Of a stretch of 64,000 nucleotides of DNA, positions 224 to 28,599 are shown in pieces. The stretch is from Corynebacterium casei LMG S-19264 (lineage in GTDB: Bacteria; Actinomycetota; Actinomycetes; Mycobacteriales; Mycobacteriaceae): NCBI RefSeq assembly GCF_000550785.1, contig NZ_CP004350.1:1220009-1284008 (forward strand), read 5' to 3'. The notes below the pieces were generated by a model, which saw nothing but the letters and a program-made list of their open reading frames with translations, did not search any database and was not told the DNA's origin. Both the position numbers and the translations under genes were made by a program. Numbering within the stretch: position 1 is the stretch's first letter; each line of letters begins with the position of its first letter.

Positions 224-757
224 TTACTGCAGACGGAAACCGAACTGCTGCAAGACGCTAGCGATCTGGTCGCGTGCCTCTGGGGAGAATGCTGCCAGGA
301 TGGTTGCTGCCTGAGTTAGGGAGCCGCCGACTGCCAAGATGGCACCGACAACAGCGAATATCATGTCGGTGGTTTCATTGCCGCGCATAGACTTCAAAGA
401 ATCTGGGACATTTTCCCAACGCTCGTCTTCTGCCTGCTCATCTTCTTCTTCGATGCAGTCTGGCTCTTCTGGCATGCCTGAGGAACCGTAGCCGTTAGCG
501 ATACCGAAGGCGAGCTCCTGTGGGCCCATGAAGGAGGAACCAACGGTGCCGTCTTCAACAGCCTGCTCGTGGTATTCACGGGCGTTTTCTACAGCTTCCT
601 GGCACTCGTCGGAGTAGCCATCCGCGTTGATGTGGCCACCGGAGGACAGCTGGCTGGAAGACGGGATGGTTTGTGCAGTTGCAGCAACCGGAGTCAAGGC
701 TGAGACAGCGACGCTGGTAGCTGCAACAACAGCAACAGCAAGGCGGGAGTTACGCAT
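224..757 (-). CDS. Small secreted protein with C-terminal hydrophobic anchor
   Basis: No recognised family. The start at 757 is chosen because AAGGAG lies just upstream and the protein then begins MRNSRLAV with a clear signal peptide (hydrophobic stretch to about residue 27, cleavage likely after ATA-Q). The 177-residue product has an acidic middle region rich in Glu and Asp, two Cys near the acidic part, and a hydrophobic helix near residues 135-160, followed by a short tail (EARDQIASVLQQFG). It is probably exported and may be held at the membrane or mycomembrane. The tail resembles the end of the next gene (873-2852), on the same strand upstream. Function unknown. Confidence 0.75.
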   Translation of the reverse strand: MRNSRLAVAVVAATSVAVSALTPVAATAQTIPSSSQLSSGGHINADGYSDECQEAVENAREYHEQAVEDGTVGSSFMGPQELAFGIANGYGSSGMPEEPDCIEEEDEQAEDERWENVPDSLKSMRGNETTDMIFAVVGAILAVGGSLTQAATILAAFSPEARDQIASVLQQFGFRLQ

Positions 758-19609: not shown

Positions 19610-20395
19610 ATGACCTTTACTTTATTGCCCGCAGTAGACGTTGTTGACGGCCAGGCCGTTCGCCTTGATCAAGGCGAAGCAGGAACTGAAAAGTCCTATG
19701 GCACGCCTTTGGAATCTGCCCTGAAATGGCAGGAGCAGGGTGCGCAGTGGCTGCATTTTGTTGACCTAGACGCAGCGTTTAATCGTGGTTCCAACCATGA
19801 GTTGATGGCGGAGGTTATCTCTAACCTTGGCATCAAGGTGGAGCTGACCGGTGGCATCCGTGATGATGCTTCGCTCAAGCGCGCACTAGATACCGGCGTG
19901 CAGCGCGTGAACATTGGAACCGCGGCATTGGAGAATCCAGAGTGGATTGCCAAGGTGCTGGGGGAATACGGCGATAAGATTGCCGTCGATTTAGCTGTGC
20001 GTCAGATTGACGGCGAGTGGCGTACCCGTGGCAATGGTTGGGTATCTGACGGCGGAGATCTCTGGGAAGTTCTGGAGCGTCTAGACTCCGCTGGCTGTAC
20101 TCGCTTTGTGGTCACCGATGTGTCCAAGGATGGCACGTTGACCGGCCCAAACGTGGAGCTGCTGCGCGAGGTAGCCATGGCAACTGAGGCCAAGATTGTT
20201 GCTTCCGGCGGCATTTCCAAACTCGAGGACGTCACGGAGCTTGCGCTGTATGAAAATGAGGGCATTGATTCTGCCATCATTGGTAAAGCTTTGTATGAGG
20301 GCCGTTTCGATCTCACGACAGCGCTTGACGCAGTGGCTAAGGTTGAACCATTGCCAGAAGAAGCCCCTATTGATTTGCTGGAGTCGCGCGAATGA
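19610..20395 (+). CDS. hisA: Phosphoribosylformimino-AICAR-phosphate isomerase
   Basis: HisA is a beta/alpha barrel that isomerises ProFAR to PRFAR. The 261 residues begin [15 protein letters not shown] and contain [12 protein letters not shown], the second-half Asp in [15 protein letters not shown] and [11 protein letters not shown]. In most Actinobacteria the homologue PriA also acts as TrpF; in Corynebacterium, which has its own TrpF (fused to TrpC) in a separate trp operon, the enzyme is reported to be specialised for histidine. The stop overlaps the next start (ATGA). Confidence 0.95.
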
Positions 20396-21183
20396 CCTCA
20401 CCATTAGAGCTGGTTGCCATGGCAGAAGCTGTTGTTGATGACGTAGAGCAGCTTTTCATCGATGGCCTCGGCGCACCTCCTGCCCGGTTTAAAGGCGAAG
20501 GTGACTTTGCCACCGAAGTCGATCTGGCTATTGAGGCGCACCTGCGTAGTACGCTGACCCAGATGACTGGCATTGGAGTCTATGGCGAAGAAGGCGGCGG
20601 GGATGCTGATCTCAACCAGACAGCGTGGGTAGTAGATCCTATCGACGGCACAGCGAATTACGCCGCCGGTAACCCGATGTGCGGCACTGTGGTTTCTTTG
20701 GTGCATGAAGGTAAACCGATTGTTGCTATCGCGAATTTCCCGCTCGTGGGCCGACGCTTAGTAGCAGCCCACGGCATGGAACTTCGCACCCTGGGTGGGC
20801 CGAAGTCCGGCTTTGGTGGTGGCCAGGATGCGCTCGCTTTTGAAGATTCGCGTGGCCACATTGGTTGCTCTTCGCATCTTCCAACCACGCTTTTTGATGA
20901 TTTGCGCAGCATCGGACTGCGCCCCCGCATGTCCGGCTCGGTCTGCTTGGATTCGGCATTCGTTGCCCAAGGCGTATTCGATGGTGCGGTGAACTTCTCG
21001 CCGCACCCGTGGGATAACGCGGCTGGCGTACTTTTTGTTCAATCCGCCGGCGGTGTAGCTACCGATCCGCAGGGCAATCCGTGGACCACCGCGTCCAAAG
21101 GACTCGTTGTGGGAACTGAGCAAGTTCACGCCACCATCCTTGATGCCATTGAACGCACCGGCGTAGGCAACCGCCAGTCCTAA
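20392..21183 (+). CDS. impA: Inositol-monophosphatase family phosphatase
   Basis: A 263-residue Mg-dependent phosphatase of the IMPase family. Metal ligands are seen in YGEEGGG (Glu), [13 protein letters not shown] (the DPxDGT motif) and the C-terminal [17 protein letters not shown] (WDxAAG). In C. glutamicum the gene at this place is called impA; the histidinol-phosphatase of that organism (HisN) is another member of the family encoded elsewhere, so this one may act on inositol phosphate or on a histidine intermediate. It overlaps hisA by 4 bases. Confidence 0.9.
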
Positions 21184-21216: not shown

Positions 21217-21981
21217 GTGTCTGTGGCAATCCGCGTCATTCCATGCCTCGATGTTGATCAAGGCCGCGTGGTTAAAGGCGTCAACTTTGAAAACCTGCGC
21301 GACGCTGGCGACCCAGTTGAACTGGCCAAGCGCTACAACGATATTGGTGCTGATGAACTGACCTTCTTGGACGTTTCTGCCTCCAAGCACGGTCGTGGAA
21401 CCATGCTGGATGTTGTCCGCCGTACCGCAGACCAGGTTTTCATCCCGCTGACGGTTGGCGGTGGAGTGCGCTCCGCAGACGATGTGCGTGAGCTTCTGCG
21501 CGCTGGCGCGGATAAGGTTTCTGTCAACACCTCCGCTATCGCGCGTCCAGAATTACTGCGCGAGCTGGCCGATATCTTTGGTTCCCAGTGCATTGTCCTG
21601 TCCGTTGATGCACGCCGTTCCGCAGAGCAGCCTTCCGGGTTTGAGGTGACCACCCATGGTGGCACCAAGTCCGCTGGCCTAGATGCACTGGAGTGGGCGC
21701 GCCGTGGCGAAGAACTCGGCGTGGGAGAGATCCTTCTCAACTCCATGGATGGGGACGGCACCCGCAGCGGCTTTGACATCGAAATGCTCAAGGCAGTGCG
21801 CGAAGTAGTTTCCGTTCCCGTCATTGCCTCCGGCGGTGCAGGCAAGGCTGCTGATTTCCCACCGGCAGTTGAAGCCGGCGCCAATGCTGTGCTGGCGGCT
21901 TCCATCTTCCACTTCGGTGAAGTTACCATTGAGGAAGTAAAGGATGAACTGGTGAATGCGGGATTTGAGGTACGCAAGTGA
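21217..21981 (+). CDS. hisF: Imidazole glycerol phosphate synthase, cyclase subunit
   Basis: HisF takes PRFAR and ammonia from HisH and makes imidazole-glycerol phosphate and AICAR. The 254-residue barrel begins [21 protein letters not shown] with the catalytic Asp at DVDQGR, and has [20 protein letters not shown], the second catalytic Asp in [11 protein letters not shown] and [14 protein letters not shown] start with AAGGAG upstream. The stop overlaps the hisI start. Confidence 0.97.
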
Positions 21982-22397
21982 GTAATAACACCTCGAGCAG
22001 TGAGGCTGCTCAAGACGCAGAACGCACCAATCCTTCCGAGTATGACCTAGCGCCAGATATTGCCGCGCGTCTCAAGCGCAATGAGCAGGGACTTGTCCCC
22101 GCCATCGTCCAAGCAGAGTCCGGTGAGGTGCTCATGATGGCATGGATGGATGACCACGCGTTGGCGCATTCTCTGATGACGCGCAAAGGCACATATTTTT
22201 CCCGATCTCGTGATGAGTATTGGGTAAAAGGGGAGACCTCTGGCAATGTACAAGAGGTAGTCGGTGCACGACTAGATTGTGATGGCGACACCATTTTGCT
22301 GACCGTGCGTCAGTCGGGTGGTGCCTGCCATACGGGTGATAGGACCTGCTTTGATGCAGACGACTTACTTCATCCGCGATCTAAGAATCCTTCTTAA
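21978..22397 (+). CDS. hisI: Phosphoribosyl-AMP cyclohydrolase
   Basis: HisI opens the purine ring of phosphoribosyl-AMP with zinc and magnesium. The 139 residues include [19 protein letters not shown], a [18 protein letters not shown] block, the Mg-binding [12 protein letters not shown] and the Cys/His zinc site [12 protein letters not shown]. It is the single-domain form without the HisE pyrophosphohydrolase; hisE is not in this window. It ends the histidine genes proper. Confidence 0.96.
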
Positions 22398-22414: not shown

Positions 22415-23050
22415 ATGGGCAGGCGTATTGGCCCCCTCCTATTTGCAGTAGCCGCCATTGTCTTGTGGCTGTCTTCCCGCGCTACCTGGGTCACGGCACA
22501 CGTGGAAGATGAGCTGTCTGGTGCGCAAACCTTGCCGCTTAACGGTGGCTTCTGGTCGCTGGAACTGATGGGCCTGACCTTGCTGCTGTTGGCTGGCTCA
22601 ATCGCTGGTCTTGCGTTGCGTCGTATCGGTCGCCGAATCGTGGGCATCATTGTGGCACTCGCCGGTGCTGCTGCCGCATGGGGACCGTTGCAGTTGCTGA
22701 CCACTGGTGCCGACCCGGTCCGCGCGCAGGAGCTGCTCCAAGCCAGTGAAGCCAACCAGAACGCCGTGGACAATGTGTCGATTTCGGCGTGGGCGCAAGT
22801 AGTCTCCGTTGAGGTTTCTCAGTTGGGACCTATCTTCGCCGTGATTGCCGGTGCGGCCGCAGTCTTCGGTGGAGTCTTGTTGGCCATACAGCCGGGGGTA
22901 GACAAACCACGCTCCCACAAATATGAGACTTCTGCGGCGCGTGAAGAAGCACTGGCCGAAGACCTGCAGAATTCTCCAGATTCAGGCCGCGTTATGTGGG
23001 ATGCGCTGGATGCGGACATCGATCCGACGGACCTTCCTAGCCAAAAATAG
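22415..23050 (+). CDS. 'trp region' conserved membrane protein (TIGR02234 type)
   Basis: A 211-residue membrane protein with about four hydrophobic segments (near residues 5-22, 45-68, 72-92 and 130-155) and a polar C-terminal tail. The RATWV motif after the first helix and the overall shape fit the family called trp-region conserved hypothetical membrane protein, which in mycobacteria is Rv1610 between trpE and trpC. Here it keeps its place next to a TrpC-like gene although trpE is absent. Function unknown. Confidence 0.8.
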   Translation: MGRRIGPLLFAVAAIVLWLSSRATWVTAHVEDELSGAQTLPLNGGFWSLELMGLTLLLLAGSIAGLALRRIGRRIVGIIVALAGAAAAWGPLQLLTTGADPVRAQELLQASEANQNAVDNVSISAWAQVVSVEVSQLGPIFAVIAGAAAVFGGVLLAIQPGVDKPRSHKYETSAAREEALAEDLQNSPDSGRVMWDALDADIDPTDLPSQK

Positions 23051-23139
23051 GGCACGATTTCTTAAACTCTCACTGCGCGCGATAGCCTAGTTGTGATCTA
23101 GACTTCACTTATTCTTGAGTTCAGAACGGGAGGTGTGGA

Positions 23140-23967
23140 GTGCCAGCCCCGATCGCGGTGGAAAGTATTTTACGCGACGTTTTAGATGACGTCGCTGCGC
23201 GCGAGGCAAAGGTGTCTTTCCAAGACGTCAAAGCTCGCTCGCGCAGCATGGAACCACCGCGTGATGCCCGCGCCGCCTTGCTGCGCAATGGCTGCTCCGT
23301 TATTACTGAACTCAAGCGTGCAGTCCCATACCGTGGCCAGATTGCACAATTGGAATCGCCGCAGTCAATGGCGAACCTCGCAATTCAACTCGAGCAAGTC
23401 GGCGTGCATCTGATGGCCTGTCAGACTGAGCGGCGGCGTTTCCACGGCTCGCTCGCGGACATGACCGCAGCACGTGAAGCCACAACGGTGCCAATGATTT
23501 GCCGCGACCTGATAGTGGACCCGTACCAAATCCATGAGGCTCGATGTTATGGCGCTGACGTAGTGCCGCTTCAAGTTGGGATTTTGGAACAAGCCCGCCT
23601 GGAATCATTGCTGGACCGCATTGAGTCCTTAGGCATGGTGGCCTTATTAGAAGTTCGAAACCCAGAAGAAGTAGACCGAGTCATGCACGCCGGGGGAACA
23701 GTCGTGGGGATAAACGCGTGGTCATTGACTTCAGACGCGTTGCATCGGGAAGCATTTGCGGAAATCGTGCCGGGGCTACCGGAAAGTGTTATCCGCATCG
23801 CCGTGGGCGGCGTTGAATCCCCGAAAGACCTTCTAAGCTATGCCTCCTCCGGCGCAGATGCCGTCATGGTGGGCGAGTCCGTAATGACGGCACAGAGCCC
23901 ATCGGCGTTGGCGCGCGGCCTTGTTGCTACCGGCCAACATCCAGCCTGCCCGTCACGCAAGCTCTAG
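23140..23967 (+). CDS. TrpC-like protein with degenerate active site
   Basis: A 275-residue barrel that aligns along its whole length with indole-3-glycerol phosphate synthase (TrpC), for example DVAAREAKVS, YQIHEAR-x-x-GAD, LDR-x-ESLGM and PGLP-x-SVIRIA. Several residues of the known active site are changed. Retained: Glu57 and Lys59 (ELKRA), Glu171, Asn192. Changed: the catalytic Lys of the RKDF motif is Arg122 (ICRDL), the Arg of NxRxL is Trp194 (NAWSL), Glu-Ser of the ESG loop are Val222-Gly223 (AVGGV), and SPS is VPY. It is therefore unlikely to be a normal IGPS. GTG start. It lies before lgt, where mycobacteria have trpC-trpB-trpA. Confidence 0.85.
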   Translation: MPAPIAVESILRDVLDDVAAREAKVSFQDVKARSRSMEPPRDARAALLRNGCSVITELKRAVPYRGQIAQLESPQSMANLAIQLEQVGVHLMACQTERRRFHGSLADMTAAREATTVPMICRDLIVDPYQIHEARCYGADVVPLQVGILEQARLESLLDRIESLGMVALLEVRNPEEVDRVMHAGGTVVGINAWSLTSDALHREAFAEIVPGLPESVIRIAVGGVESPKDLLSYASSGADAVMVGESVMTAQSPSALARGLVATGQHPACPSRKL

Positions 23968-24003
23968 TGCCCAAAGCCAAAGAAGTATGGCACACTAAAC
24001 TAT

Positions 24004-24969
24004 GTGCAAACGATGATTTTGGCTAATATTCCGTCCCCGCCGCAAGGCGTGTGGCATTTAGGTCCTATTCCCATTCGTGCTTATGCCTTGTGCATTATCG
24101 TCGGTATTTTGGTGGCTTTGTGGCTAACACAGCGCCGCTATACCGCGGCGGGTGGCAACCCTGACACGGTGTGGGACGCAGCCATTGTCATCATTCCCGC
24201 CGGCATCATCGGCGGACGTATCTATCACGTGGCCACAGATTACGATAAGTACTTCTGTGCCGACTGTAATCCCGTGGATGCGTTCAAACTCACCAACGGC
24301 GGATTAGGTATTTGGGGCGCAGTCGCCTTGGGCACGCTGGCTATCTGGGTGATGTTCAAAATCAAGGGTATCCCGATGGGACCGTTCGCCGACGCCGTCG
24401 CGCCAGGCTTGGTCCTGGCACAGGGTATTGGCCGTCTGGGCAACTGGTTCAACCAGGAACTCTACGGCGCCGAGACCACCGTTCCGTGGGCGCTGGATAT
24501 CTACTACCGCGTGGACGAAGCGGGCAGCTACGCACCAATCTCAGGTCGCTCCACCGGTGAAGTTATTGCGTCCGTTCACCCAACATTCCTTTATGAACTG
24601 ATCTGGAACGTCCTAGTCTGCTTGTTCTTGCTTTGGGCACACCGCGCCTGGAAGCTCGGCCATGGCCGTATCTTCGCGCTCTATGTCGCCGGCTACACCC
24701 TGGGCCGTTTCTTCATTGAGAACATGCGTACCGATGAAGCCACCATGGTCTTTGGTTTCCGCATCAACGCAATTGTTTCCGTCGTGGTCTTTATCATCGC
24801 CGTCATTGTGTTCTTCTCGCTAAAGAAGGGGCAAGAAACCCCGGAAGAAGTGGATCCGCAATACCAAGCAAAGTTGGCAGAGGAAGCATCGGAAGAAAAC
24901 GATGAAGCGGAAGCGACGGATGCGTACGGTTCTGCTGGAACGTCAGATGCGTCCAAGCCCAATTTCTAG
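24004..24969 (+). CDS. lgt: Prolipoprotein diacylglyceryl transferase
   Basis: Lgt transfers diacylglycerol from phosphatidylglycerol to the lipobox Cys of prolipoproteins in the plasma membrane. The 321 residues have about seven hydrophobic helices; the signature [14 protein letters not shown] and [10 protein letters not shown] are present, and [15 protein letters not shown] near the end matches the conserved C-terminal Arg motif. The final 50 residues are acidic and cytoplasmic-looking. GTG start at 24004; ATG 24013 is an alternative. The lipoprotein at 12938 is one of its likely clients. Confidence 0.95.
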
Positions 24970-25114
24970 TAGCTAATCAGTTCCGACCGGGTATTTCCGA
25001 TTCGGTTGGATCATTTTTGTATTGAGATATGCGGTATTAGTAGCAGCGGGCTCCAACTGCGGGTAGGTTAGGAGACGTTGAATACTGCTAGAGATGAAGA
25101 GGTTAGGCTCAAAC

Positions 25115-26533
25115 ATGCTGGATAGAAGAACTAAGATCGTTTGTACTCTTGGCCCTGCCGTAGCCAGCGAGGATGCCATTTTGCGCCTCGTTGAAGATGG
25201 CATGGACGTTGCCCGTCTCAACTTCTCCCACGGCGACCACGCTGACCACGAACAAAACTACAACTGGGTGCGTTCTGCAACGGATGCCACCGGTCGCGCA
25301 GTCGGAATTTTGGCTGACTTGCAGGGTCCAAAGATCCGTTTGGGTCGCTTTGAAAACGGTTCAGAAATCTGGGCCAATGGTGAGACCGTTCGCATCACCG
25401 TCGATGACGTTCAGGGCACCCATGACCGAGTGTCCACCACTTATAAGAACCTGGCGCAGGATGCGAAGCCAGGAGATCGCTTGCTTATCGATGACGGCAA
25501 GGTCGCCGTTGTCTGCGAAAAGGTCGAAGGCAATGATGTTATCTGCCGCGTGACTGAGGGCGGCCCGGTTTCTAACAACAAGGGCGTCTCTCTGCCGGGC
25601 ATGGACATCTCCGTTCCTGCTTTGAGTGAAAAGGATATTGCTGACCTGCGTTTCGCTTTGAAGCTGGGCGTTGACTTCATCGCTCTATCCTTCGTGCGTT
25701 CTCCAGCAGACATTGACCTTGTTCACGCAATCATGGATGAGGAAGGCCGCCGCGTTCCAGTTATTGCGAAGCTGGAAAAGCCAGAAGCTGTCGATGCTCT
25801 GGAGTCCATCATCTTGGCGTTTGACGCTGTCATGGTTGCTCGTGGTGACCTAGGCGTGGAAGTTCCACTGGAGCAGGTTCCACTGGTTCAGAAGCGCGCC
25901 GTTCAGATTGCTCGTGAGAACGCGAAGCCAGTCATCGTGGCAACACAGATGCTGGATTCCATGATTGAGAACTCCCGTCCAACCCGTGCGGAAGCATCCG
26001 ATGTAGCCAACGCTGTTCTGGATGGTGCTGACGCGGTCATGCTTTCTGGTGAGACCTCCGTTGGTGTGGATCCACACAACGTTGTGCGCACCATGGCACG
26101 TATTGTGCAGCGGGCTGAGACCGATGGCCGCGTGCCACCGCTGTCTCACGTTCCACGCACCAAGCGCGGTGTTATTTCTTACTCCGCACGCGATATCGCA
26201 GAGCGCTTGAACGCGAAGGCAATCGTAGCGTTTACCACCTCGGGTGATACCGCGAAGCGCGTGGCGCGTCTGCACTCACAGTTGCCATTGTTGGTCTTTA
26301 CCCCAACCCAGGCGGTTCGTTCCCAGCTCGCATTGACCTGGGGTGCTCGTACATTCTTGGCTCCAAATGTGGAGACAACGGATGAGATGATGCAGGCTAT
26401 GGATGAAGCATTGCTTTCCATGGATGAGTACGAAGAGGGCGACCTGGTTGTGGTCGTTGCTGGTACTCCGGCCGGTATCGCTGGTAACACTAACATGATT
26501 CACGCTCACGGTCTTGGTGAAGTAGTTAACTAA
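25115..26533 (+). CDS. pyk: Pyruvate kinase
   Basis: Pyk converts phosphoenolpyruvate and ADP to pyruvate and ATP at the end of glycolysis. Motifs: RRTKIVCTLGPA at the N-terminus, LNFSHGDH, LADLQGPKIRLG, the Mg/K site VIAKLEKPEAVDAL with VMVARGDLGVE, and TQMLDSMIENSRPTRAE. A C-terminal allosteric domain follows (about residue 350 on). I favour ATG 25115 (472 aa), because the family starts just before RRTKIV; the ATG at 25094 would add seven residues. A terminator follows. Confidence 0.95.
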   Translation: MLDRRTKIVCTLGPAVASEDAILRLVEDGMDVARLNFSHGDHADHEQNYNWVRSATDATGRAVGILADLQGPKIRLGRFENGSEIWANGETVRITVDDVQGTHDRVSTTYKNLAQDAKPGDRLLIDDGKVAVVCEKVEGNDVICRVTEGGPVSNNKGVSLPGMDISVPALSEKDIADLRFALKLGVDFIALSFVRSPADIDLVHAIMDEEGRRVPVIAKLEKPEAVDALESIILAFDAVMVARGDLGVEVPLEQVPLVQKRAVQIARENAKPVIVATQMLDSMIENSRPTRAEASDVANAVLDGADAVMLSGETSVGVDPHNVVRTMARIVQRAETDGRVPPLSHVPRTKRGVISYSARDIAERLNAKAIVAFTTSGDTAKRVARLHSQLPLLVFTPTQAVRSQLALTWGARTFLAPNVETTDEMMQAMDEALLSMDEYEEGDLVVVVAGTPAGIAGNTNMIHAHGLGEVVN

Positions 26534-26626: not shown

Positions 26627-27310
26627 ATGCTTGAGGTCATTGCGCTCAACGTCGATGATGCCCGCAAGGCCTAAGAAGGTGGCGCACACCAATTAGAGCT
26701 CGTGGGCACCATCGACAAAGATGGACTGTCACCCTCACCGGCGCTGGCTGCAGACGTCGTTACAGCGGTAAACATCCCAGTGCGGTCGATGCTGCGCCTT
26801 AGCGACGGATTTGCCACCAACGCGAATGAGGTTGAACAGCTTAAACAGCTTGCCGTGCAGTACGCAGACCCGGGCGCGGCAGGTGTGGTCCTAGGATTTC
26901 TCACGCCAGATTCACAGATCGACATTGCGGTCCTAGAAGACATCCTGAGTTCCACGGCTCCAGGGATGGACTACACGTTTCATCGTGCGATTGACTATGC
27001 AGCACAAGGCGCGAGGGAAACGTTGCTGGCCCTAGAACATCCACCACGGCATGTCCTGACCGCCGGAAGCCCACTCGGTGTAGGAGAGGGGATTGAAACC
27101 TTACTTGCCCGCGCCAAAGCGACCCCCGAGCTGATCCTGGCCGGTGGTGGATTAAAAGCTGAGTTCGTGCCGCGCTTCACAGCAGCGGGTATCAGGAATT
27201 TTCATATTGGCTCAGCAGCGCGGCTCAACGGCAGCTTCGATGAGCGCATTGACCCGAAGGCAGTGGCTCGCTGGGTTGAGCTGACCGAGAAACCTAGGCT
27301 ATTTGATTAA
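26627..27310 (+). pseudogene. cutC: CutC family protein, interrupted by an in-frame stop
   Basis: The frame from ATG 26627, preceded by a good AGGAGG, reads MLEVIALNVDDARKA, then TAA at 26672-26674, then continues in the same frame EGGAHQLELVGTIDKDG through the rest of a CutC barrel (TFHRAIDYAAQGA, VLTAGSP, LAGGGLKAEF) to a stop at 27308-27310. Without the stop the protein would have 227 residues, a normal CutC length. CutC is linked to copper homeostasis in some bacteria, with an uncertain biochemical role. Re-initiation at GTG 26702 would lose the first beta-alpha unit (about 25 residues). A sequencing error cannot be excluded, but a single substitution such as CAA or GAA to TAA explains it. 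It overlaps the convergent HNH gene by 12 bases. Confidence 0.75.
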
Positions 27311-28405
27311 ATCCATAGCTCCCACCGTGCTTAGCTCATGTGTGTTGCCCAGCAGGTTTCTACCTGAGGTAACAAGCTTGACCTTGCTGCGGTGGCTCAT
27401 CATCCGACCTCGATTTTTCTCGCGGCGCCTTGCCCGGGCGCCGTCGTCGTTGACACCGTTGTGGTAAGCACACAGCGCGGACAGATTTGACGGGTTCGTC
27501 TGGCCGCCGTTCTTATGCGCGTCGATGTGGTGGACCAGGCATCGGTCTGCCGGTACTTTGCAGTCTGGCCATGGGCACACCAGGTTTTCTGCGATGGCCA
27601 AGATTCGCTGTTTGCCTGACGCGAACCGCGCTTCGTAGAGATTGACTGGTCCGGCGGTGGGGTGGAAGAGTCCGGCGTAAATCTTGTCGCCAAGGGCGCC
27701 GGACATCGCAAGGTTAACGATTTCGGCTCCAGTCATCGTCGTGCCGTCGGAGGCGCCGATGATGGATTCGTCGCCTTCGCCGCGAATAATCGTTGCGGAT
27801 TGATCCAAACCAATAGCAATAACAGTGCGGTATTCGGGTTTGAGCACACCACCGCCACCATCGATATGTTTCCAAAACGCTTCTAACAGTGCCTTCGACC
27901 TCGGCTCTGATGAGGTCTCTATGGCATCAAGGGTCTTCTCAAAGTCGATGATGCGACGTTGAGTATCGGTGATGCTCATAGTGACCATGCCATTTTTCGG
28001 GCGGCTTATACGCATACCGGGTTCTTTTGGTTTGTCACCAACGAGTCCGTCGACGCGCTGGTTGCCCAGAGCATTGACTTCTTCATAAGTGCCCTCATGT
28101 GCAATTAACTCAGCACGGAGTTTCCAGGCGGCACCGCGCTTTTTCTTTAACTTCTGAGCGTGACTATCAATCATCTGAAGGCGCTCCATACTCAACCCGC
28201 GCTCTTCGGCGAGTGCTACGGACTCGTGCTGAAGGCGTGGTGAGTCGGTGGAGCCGAAGAAGACATCCGCTAACTTGGCGTACTTTCTCGCCGTCTTTAA
28301 CGCCATGTCATCGGCGGCCATGTCATAAACGGATAGTTCCGCCATGTCTCTTAAAACGCTCACCGCCTGGGTGGCTTGTCGTATGAATGCTTTGTAGTTT
28401 TTCAT
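27299..28405 (-). CDS. HNH endonuclease domain protein (DUF222 type)
   Basis: A 368-residue protein with a long helical N-terminal DUF222-like region and a C-terminal HNH nuclease motif: CPWPDC-x-VPADRCLVHHIDAHKNGGQTNPSNL followed by LCAYHN. The two Cys pairs suggest a zinc-stabilised HNH fold, and HH-x-D supplies the catalytic His. These genes are common in several copies in actinobacterial genomes and related to mobile-element 13E12-type proteins; no cellular role is established. The start is uncertain (ATG 28405 chosen; TTG 28432 possible, neither with a good ribosome binding site). The end overlaps cutC tail to tail. Confidence 0.85.
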   Translation of the reverse strand: MKNYKAFIRQATQAVSVLRDMAELSVYDMAADDMALKTARKYAKLADVFFGSTDSPRLQHESVALAEERGLSMERLQMIDSHAQKLKKKRGAAWKLRAELIAHEGTYEEVNALGNQRVDGLVGDKPKEPGMRISRPKNGMVTMSITDTQRRIIDFEKTLDAIETSSEPRSKALLEAFWKHIDGGGGVLKPEYRTVIAIGLDQSATIIRGEGDESIIGASDGTTMTGAEIVNLAMSGALGDKIYAGLFHPTAGPVNLYEARFASGKQRILAIAENLVCPWPDCKVPADRCLVHHIDAHKNGGQTNPSNLSALCAYHNGVNDDGARARRREKNRGRMMSHRSKVKLVTSGRNLLGNTHELSTVGAMDLIK

Positions 28406-28599
28406 GACTTCGACGCTAAACCGAAAGCGCAACCCCGCAACAGAGCAAGTCTGAAAAGCTGTGGATAACTACGTTGACACGTCACTCAACAGGGCAAGTT
28501 ATCCAAAGATGTGCTGCGGGAGCCCAATTGGTCCGAAAATCCATTGTGGTGCGGTGCTTTCGGGGTTTGCCTAAGAAGTTTTCAGAACGCCAGAATTCT

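Follow-up and report, generated by a model that had tools for sequence, protein, structure and literature searches.

A TrpC-like protein encoded upstream of lgt in Corynebacterium is probably a neofunctionalised pseudoenzyme

The 64,000-nucleotide stretch of DNA from Corynebacterium casei LMG S-19264 analysed here (the window) encodes, just ahead of lgt, a protein related to the tryptophan-pathway enzyme indole-glycerol phosphate synthase (IGPS, TrpC). This protein, here called TrpCL, is probably a neofunctionalised pseudoenzyme, rather than a relic in decay or an enzyme of tryptophan synthesis: its catalytic motif has been lost, while its reading frame and predicted fold have been retained under purifying selection. 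The original prediction, made from the window alone, had left open whether the gene is a relic, or simply freed from selection, or is kept for another role. Purifying selection, clade-wide new residues and wide retention across the genus speak for the last of these, and a median dN/dS of 0.13 together with those same residues tells against the first two. As to what the role might be, we lean, without great assurance, towards binding: by a patch on the side and bottom of the barrel and, in most species, also by a reshaped pocket.

Genomic context and predicted structure of TrpCL

The TrpCL gene (23140..23967, +) starts with GTG and encodes 275 amino acids, forming an intact (beta/alpha)8 barrel without the IGPS catalytic residues. 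It is preceded by a gene for a membrane protein of the TIGR02234 / PF09534 family, here called Chp (22415..23050, +; 136 bits against a cut-off of 71). Further upstream lie hisA (19610..20395, +), named from its sequence and assigned to the subHisA type by its residue pattern; an inositol-phosphatase-like gene (20392-21183) and hisF (21217-21981), also named from sequence; and hisI (21978-22397), recognised by its position, a PRA-CH match and reference matches in other loci. Downstream, lgt (24004-24969) and pyk (25094-26533) were assigned from position and reference matches in other loci. The window also contains, at 26702-27310, a gene for a CutC-family protein that lacks the first 31 profile positions and is possibly shortened at its start; its end is overlapped by a frame on the opposite strand (27299-28432, -) whose product weakly matches HNH endonucleases (22 bits, cut-off 21.4).

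The proposed likeness of the 275-residue product to mycobacterial TrpC along its whole length was borne out. TrpCL matches the Pfam IGPS family PF00218 over residues 8-257 (162 bits), and aligns end to end with Mycobacterium tuberculosis IGPS over residues 5-272 (E 5e-71). With the NCBIfam TrpC equivalog model NF001369 its score is 288 bits, below the cut-off of 329; three TrpC proteins from ordinary operons gave 441-455 bits with the same model, and two other TrpCL proteins gave 178 and 267. AlphaFold predicts a complete barrel for the window protein (pLDDT 94.6, pTM 0.92), and the solved fold closest to this model is M. tuberculosis IGPS 3t44 (TM 0.91, rmsd 1.2, 48% identity). A separate TrpC-TrpF, which had also been anticipated, was located 1.83 Mb from TrpCL: a second IGPS domain lies within a 502-aa frame (G000:C1:3071879-3072619), with TrpA downstream of it at 3074606-3075379. 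The window TrpCL and this TrpCF are only 25% identical.

Loss of catalytic residues and remodelling of the active site

For residue counts, 147 TrpCL sequences were aligned with 34 TrpC sequences from Corynebacterium and 16 from other families of the order. The 50 TrpC sequences are referred to as active, a sequence-based label for proteins that have the known catalytic residues. In the window protein, alignment with M. tuberculosis IGPS places Arg122 (codon 23503..23505, +) at the position of the catalytic lysine, which we take to be the equivalent of Lys110 in Sulfolobus solfataricus IGPS in numbering and role; Val222-Gly223 (codons 23803..23808, +) at that of the catalytic Glu-Ser pair, presumably Glu210-Ser211; and Trp194 at the arginine of the NxRxL motif. 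Glu57, Lys59, Glu171 and Asn192 are retained, and presumably correspond to Glu51, Lys53, Glu159 and Asn180. All of these assignments agree with those first read from the window, and the counts show how general each change is. Glutamate at position 222 occurs in none of the 147 TrpCL proteins and in all 50 active TrpCs; position 122 is lysine throughout active TrpC, but arginine in 122 and lysine in only eight of the TrpCL set. Thus of the residues originally stressed, Arg122 and the loss of Glu222 are common to the clade, whereas Trp194 and Gly223 mark only part of it: Trp194 occurs in 75/147, always with Gly223 (75/75), Ser223 is retained in 48/147, and Arg194 is accompanied by Ser223 in 46 of 51 proteins.

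Other positions have changed in step with the loss of the motif. Ser62, Leu95 and Leu143, each present in 50/50 active TrpCs, are Val, Gln and Pro, respectively, in the window protein. A cysteine at position 52 (codon 23293..23295, +) defines the clade, being found in 146/147 TrpCL proteins and in none of the 50 active TrpCs. Judged from these residues, IGPS catalysis has very probably been lost in TrpCL.

It is therefore hard to credit that TrpCL serves as a back-up TrpC with residual or conditional IGPS activity, even though Glu57, Lys59, Glu171 and Asn192 remain in most members and databases name the protein TrpC. In addition to the missing glutamate and the rarity of the lysine, published work on C. 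glutamicum weighs against such a role. Among tryptophan-auxotrophic transposon mutants, 10 of 43 mapped insertions were reported in trpCF (PMC1590026), although these also affect TrpF and polar effects are possible, so that the auxotrophy may have other causes; and deletion of trpEGDCFBA was reported to cause tryptophan auxotrophy, the other trp genes being removed as well (PMC11995493). TrpCL is moreover retained in a genome without TrpA. This genome, G151, is a single contig at 99% completeness; its TrpCL shows the usual motif and Chp is present, but TrpCF, TrpA and HisI are missing. In ten TrpCL loci there is no hisF or hisI, and HisI is absent altogether from all ten genomes, G151 included; one of the ten (G260) is only 77% complete and another (G083) has a very divergent TrpCL. 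Because the gene persists in these genomes, a link of its role to the synthesis of histidine or tryptophan was rejected.

Distribution, gene order and selection

A single strong, ordinary TrpC was found in 54 of the 242 Corynebacterium genomes searched, and TrpCL in 183 of the remaining 188, as tallied from match lists; 36 of the TrpCL genomes and 20 of the TrpC genomes lie outside the alignment and were judged from those lists only. TrpCL has clearly been lost from two genomes (G220 and G221), in which hisI, Chp and lgt are directly adjacent. Three further genomes were not judged: two are incomplete (G101, 82%; G199, 87%), and in the third (G166) the apparent loss was dismissed, a run of N in the assembly lying between Chp and Lgt.

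Each of the 103 TrpCL loci read at length is arranged Chp-TrpCL-Lgt, with no trpE, trpB or trpA between hisI and lgt, whereas all 17 ordinary Corynebacterium loci read at length have the order TrpE-Chp-TrpC-TrpB-TrpA-Lgt. The loss of these three genes from among hisI, the TIGR02234 gene, lgt and pyk, as described for the window, is thus the rule for TrpCL loci. Several irregularities were seen at these and other trp loci. In seven TrpCL loci (L140, L145, L166, L169, L186, L195 and L201, from G193, G022, G074, G215, G082, G179 and G162, respectively) a TrpE-like gene follows pyk on the opposite strand. A 943-aa frame in G136 (L211:2518-5349) contains HisF, HisI (PRA-CH) and TrpE domains, and is either a fusion of all three or a set of separate genes sharing one frame. 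The IGPS domain of TrpCF in G022 (G022:C14:11137-11665) and TrpA in G193 (G193:C34:142712-143433) each lie in two pieces or frames, reflecting a broken gene or a sequencing error.

The reading frame is well preserved: 146 of the 147 aligned TrpCL frames have at least 261 codons, the exception being G008 (234 aa, 27% identity). Internal stops flagged in G007, G035, G095, G212 and G242 were set aside, the frames there having 268-276 aa and a normal HPACPSR tail end. Nei-Gojobori dN/dS was calculated, as the original prediction had suggested, for pairs picked by Lgt divergence with each genome used once. The median for TrpCL was 0.132 (range 0.011-0.588; 42 of 45 pairs usable), compared with 0.147 for active TrpC (5 of 6 pairs usable), all these values being rough since dS was often near saturation. 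TrpCL is under purifying selection. Relative to Lgt, its dN is 1.28 as against 0.71 for active TrpC, so that TrpCL evolves about 1.8 times faster, and some relaxation of constraint is real.

This faster rate, the two clear losses and the great divergence of a few copies, that of G008 among them, are what might be expected of a relic that is disappearing and has survived by chance or because it maintains operon spacing ahead of lgt. So is the fate of cg2293, probably the TrpCL gene of C. glutamicum, in strain EVO5, which was evolved in glucose minimal medium: the available account describes a frameshift in cg2293 giving a stop at codon 55, in a strain that still grew in that medium and carries nine other mutations (PMC6691914). 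Since EVO5 grows with this frameshift, cg2293 is dispensable in glucose minimal medium. We nevertheless regard a relic as very unlikely, given retention in 183/188 genomes, a full-length frame in all but one of those aligned, the low dN/dS, the new residues fixed across the clade and the survival of the gene after the loss of trp and his genes.

Origin of TrpCL and transfer of the trp operon

In a TrpC tree from which 19 catalytic and remodelled columns had been excluded, TrpCL formed one clade (support 100), with the active TrpC of G252 as its sister (support 91). In a species tree of 124 genomes (103, 17 and 4), the 17 TrpC genomes, G252 included, are separated from the rest by a single branch (80), and the TrpCL genomes require two changes. 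Both trees were built with FastTree and have flagged long branches; because they place G252 differently, its position is unsure.

The neighbouring hisA carries a related signal. HisA of TrpCL genomes has threonine in place of Ser80 in 75/84 and alanine in place of Asp129 in 74/84, whereas Ser80 and Asp129 are present in 18/18 of the other genomes. Acquisition of a whole trp operon, with narrowing of PriA to subHisA, has been described for part of the genus (PMC5404923, PMC4462073), and Thr81 is given as a distinctive subHisA feature in the second of these papers; position 80 here would correspond to position 81 there. The HisA pattern of TrpCL genomes agrees with this published account as available, and TrpCL seems to be a second outcome of the same transfer. 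When pocketed TrpCL genomes (defined below) were compared with TrpC genomes, fixed differences among columns conserved in both groups numbered 6/87 for TrpCL, 10/151 for HisA and 3/37 for Chp, and 2/132 for Lgt, 4/311 for Pyk, 0/168 for HisF and 0/75 for HisI.

Chp is present in 241 of the 242 genomes and adjoins TrpCL in 103/103 loci read at length. Its C-terminal motif (window 22997-23029) is usually WDALDxDIDPT where TrpCL is present, and usually WDALDxGVDPT in the Corynebacterium genomes with TrpC. The co-retention and the three fixed differences given above for Chp were considered as evidence that Chp is a partner of TrpCL, and rejected: two of the three, the G-to-D and V-to-I changes, are already present in G252 with its active TrpC, and Chp with its motif remains in both genomes that have lost TrpCL. 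Nor was there, above the background, any correlation in evolutionary rate between TrpCL and Chp (partial rho 0.22, p 0.16, 43 pairs). A correlation between TrpCL and Lgt (partial rho 0.32, p 0.034) was one of ten uncorrected tests.

The pocket and the conserved outer segments

A polar pocket was defined by Glu57, Lys59, Lys or Arg122, Glu171 and Asn192. At least four of these five residues are present in 129/147 TrpCL proteins, one has three, and 17 have two or fewer. The 17, here called pocketless, come from about as many species, and nearly all retain the helix DPYQIHEAR, Cys52 and the tail GxHPAC. One of them, G117, we take to be probably C. glutamicum. Its frame from an inner ATG has 261 aa, as PMC6691914 reports for cg2293. 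The predicted fold of one pocketless relative is likewise a complete barrel (pLDDT 91.2). The original suggestion that the protein may bind a ligand is thus possible, from the residues kept, for the 129 pocketed proteins, but ligand binding is not the whole story, since 17 proteins with at most two pocket residues still have the gene.

Conservation was compared after thinning the 129 pocketed proteins to 97, the 50 active TrpCs to 37, and 14 pocketless proteins (the 17 without the very divergent G008, G083 and G234) to 11. Mean entropy was 1.40 in TrpCL, compared with 0.86 in active TrpC, and was 0.97 in the pocketless proteins. Particular segments are nonetheless less variable in TrpCL than in active TrpC. 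Helix 3 (127-137), the best conserved of the TrpCL helices, which starts with DPYQIHEAR (127-135; codons 23518..23544, +), has entropies of 0.34, 0.25 and 0.57 in pocketed, pocketless and active proteins, respectively; the C-terminal tail (265-273), with the motif GQHPAC in the window (265-270; codons 23932..23949, +), has 0.61, 0.22 and 1.07; and helix 0 has 0.93 in TrpCL, 0.66 in pocketless proteins and 1.62 in active TrpC. Helix 4 is slightly lower in TrpCL than in active TrpC (0.96 vs 1.05). Conservation of helix 3 is in part common to IGPS proteins generally, and may reflect fold stability; DPYQ was dropped as a new TrpCL motif, a solved Brucella IGPS having it too.

In pocketed TrpCL, the conservation of the 19 pocket positions exceeds that of random residue sets (fraction as low 0.047); in pocketless TrpCL it does not (0.91). 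It is tempting to read the former figure as the mark of a new enzyme, in which the remodelled polar pocket would act on a phosphorylated, sugar-like substrate in a different reaction, an activity that the pocketless proteins would have lost secondarily. Within the 129 proteins, themselves chosen by the pocket rule, position 95 is Gln or His in 128, where active TrpC has Leu, and Pro143 is found in 119 and Arg173 in 116; the pairing of residues 194 and 223 described above would also fit a working site. The pocket signal is marginal, however, and far weaker than in active TrpC (pocket-set entropy 1.04 vs 0.04), the residue pairs may simply be co-inherited, and pairs of pocketless proteins, with pockets no more conserved than chance, are still under purifying selection. 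Their dN/dS was 0.059 (17 pairs, not independent), compared with 0.018 for Pyk, 0.026 for HisF, 0.07 for Lgt and 0.08 for Chp in the same set. A new enzymatic activity is therefore a minority possibility, deserving to be kept in mind but on balance unlikely. Because the outer segments stay conserved while the pocket of the pocketless proteins does not, we favour binding by the side and bottom of the barrel, with the pocket second and dispensable.

Cys52, His267 and Cys270 raise the further idea of a protein that responds to metal or redox state through a Cys-His site in the bottom of the barrel. Cys52 is all but universal in the clade and absent from active TrpC, Cys270 is present in 140/147 as against 24/50, and His267 is invariant (147/147). 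In the predicted structure Cys52 lies just before strand 1 and Cys270 after helix 8, so both should be on the bottom face. In addition, C. diphtheriae DIP1555, called TrpC, is reported to be iron- and DtxR-induced (log2 1.24 and 1.02; PMC13001254). His267 is, however, equally conserved in active TrpC (49/50), six proteins have Cys52 without Cys270, no DtxR box was found in the 64-kb window with up to three mismatches, and DIP1555 is TrpCL only by the indication of its tag, with an induction of about twofold. Such a site is thus as improbable as a back-up TrpC. A broader version, in which the displaced TrpC became a genus-wide regulator or adaptor sensing metal, redox state or a partner through a bottom-face cysteine beside the His-Cys tail, tied to the lgt/pyk/his locus in some 180 species including pathogens and industrial strains, is speculative and quite unlikely.

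A working model

The following history, in which TrpCL is kept for binding, is the reading preferred here. An ancestor of most corynebacteria would have acquired a second trp operon with TrpCF, and the old operon would then have lost trpE, trpB and trpA. The old TrpC would have been remodelled once, by loss of Glu222 and the changes Lys122 to Arg, Leu95 to Gln, Val52 to Cys, Leu143 to Pro and His173 to Arg, giving a TrpCL that presumably makes no indole-glycerol phosphate and whose soluble barrel was retained for binding. Helix 3 (DPYQIHEAR), LESLGM of helix 4, Cys52 and the GxHPAC tail may form one putative patch on the side and bottom of the barrel, which might contact a protein partner. In most species the reshaped polar pocket (Glu57, Lys59, Gln95, Arg122, Glu171, Asn192) may accommodate a ligand that is different and more polar; a minority would later have dismantled the pocket while keeping the patch. 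The loss of the gene in C. glutamicum EVO5 during selection for fast growth, and in two natural genomes, counts against this model.

In C. glutamicum the transcription unit hisHA-impA-hisFI-cg2294 is reported to stop before cg2293 (PMC3896937), and because the published unit ends there, TrpCL may have its own promoter.

Implications and comparison with known systems

The database name TrpC is probably wrong for TrpCL, and many Corynebacterium genes so named are probably misannotated, likely including cg2293 and DIP1555. This affects metabolic models and lists of essential genes and targets. C. pseudotuberculosis trpC has been classed as essential on mycobacterial evidence, the copy being unspecified in the available text (PMC7923171). 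The main text of a C. diphtheriae essential-gene paper (PMC10166564) mentions none of trp, lgt and hisI. Among the literature matches listed, no paper was recognised as describing this TrpC paralogue as a pseudoenzyme, and an earlier mention is possible. The locus amounts to a natural experiment, in which an old operon has been displaced: of the four trp genes that lay between hisI and lgt, three have gone, and the fourth has been converted and kept in about 180 species; the pocketless species and the two natural losses make the remaining function of the barrel directly testable.

TrpCL shares with TrpC proper (PF00218; M. tuberculosis TrpC, 3T44) its fold, the ancestral position before lgt-pyk, and Glu57, Lys59, Glu171 and Asn192. 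It differs in lacking the catalytic Glu and Lys, in the changes Leu95 to Gln and Leu143 to Pro, in the new Cys52, in lying outside a trp operon, and in scoring below the equivalog cut-off. The bifunctional TrpCF of the same genome belongs to the same IGPS domain family, but it adjoins trpA, presumably bears the tryptophan function, and has only a quarter of its residues in common with TrpCL.

The closest parallel is subHisA, found in the same genus and apparently arising from the same event, in which a resident barrel enzyme had its active site changed after the arrival of TrpCF (PMC5404923); subHisA, however, retains one of two activities, whereas TrpCL appears to retain none of its known one. 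Like pseudoenzymes as a class, as reviewed in PMC5106787 and PMC10211241, TrpCL keeps an enzyme fold without the catalytic motif, but, in contrast to an origin by duplication in place, it arose by displacement after the arrival of a second operon.
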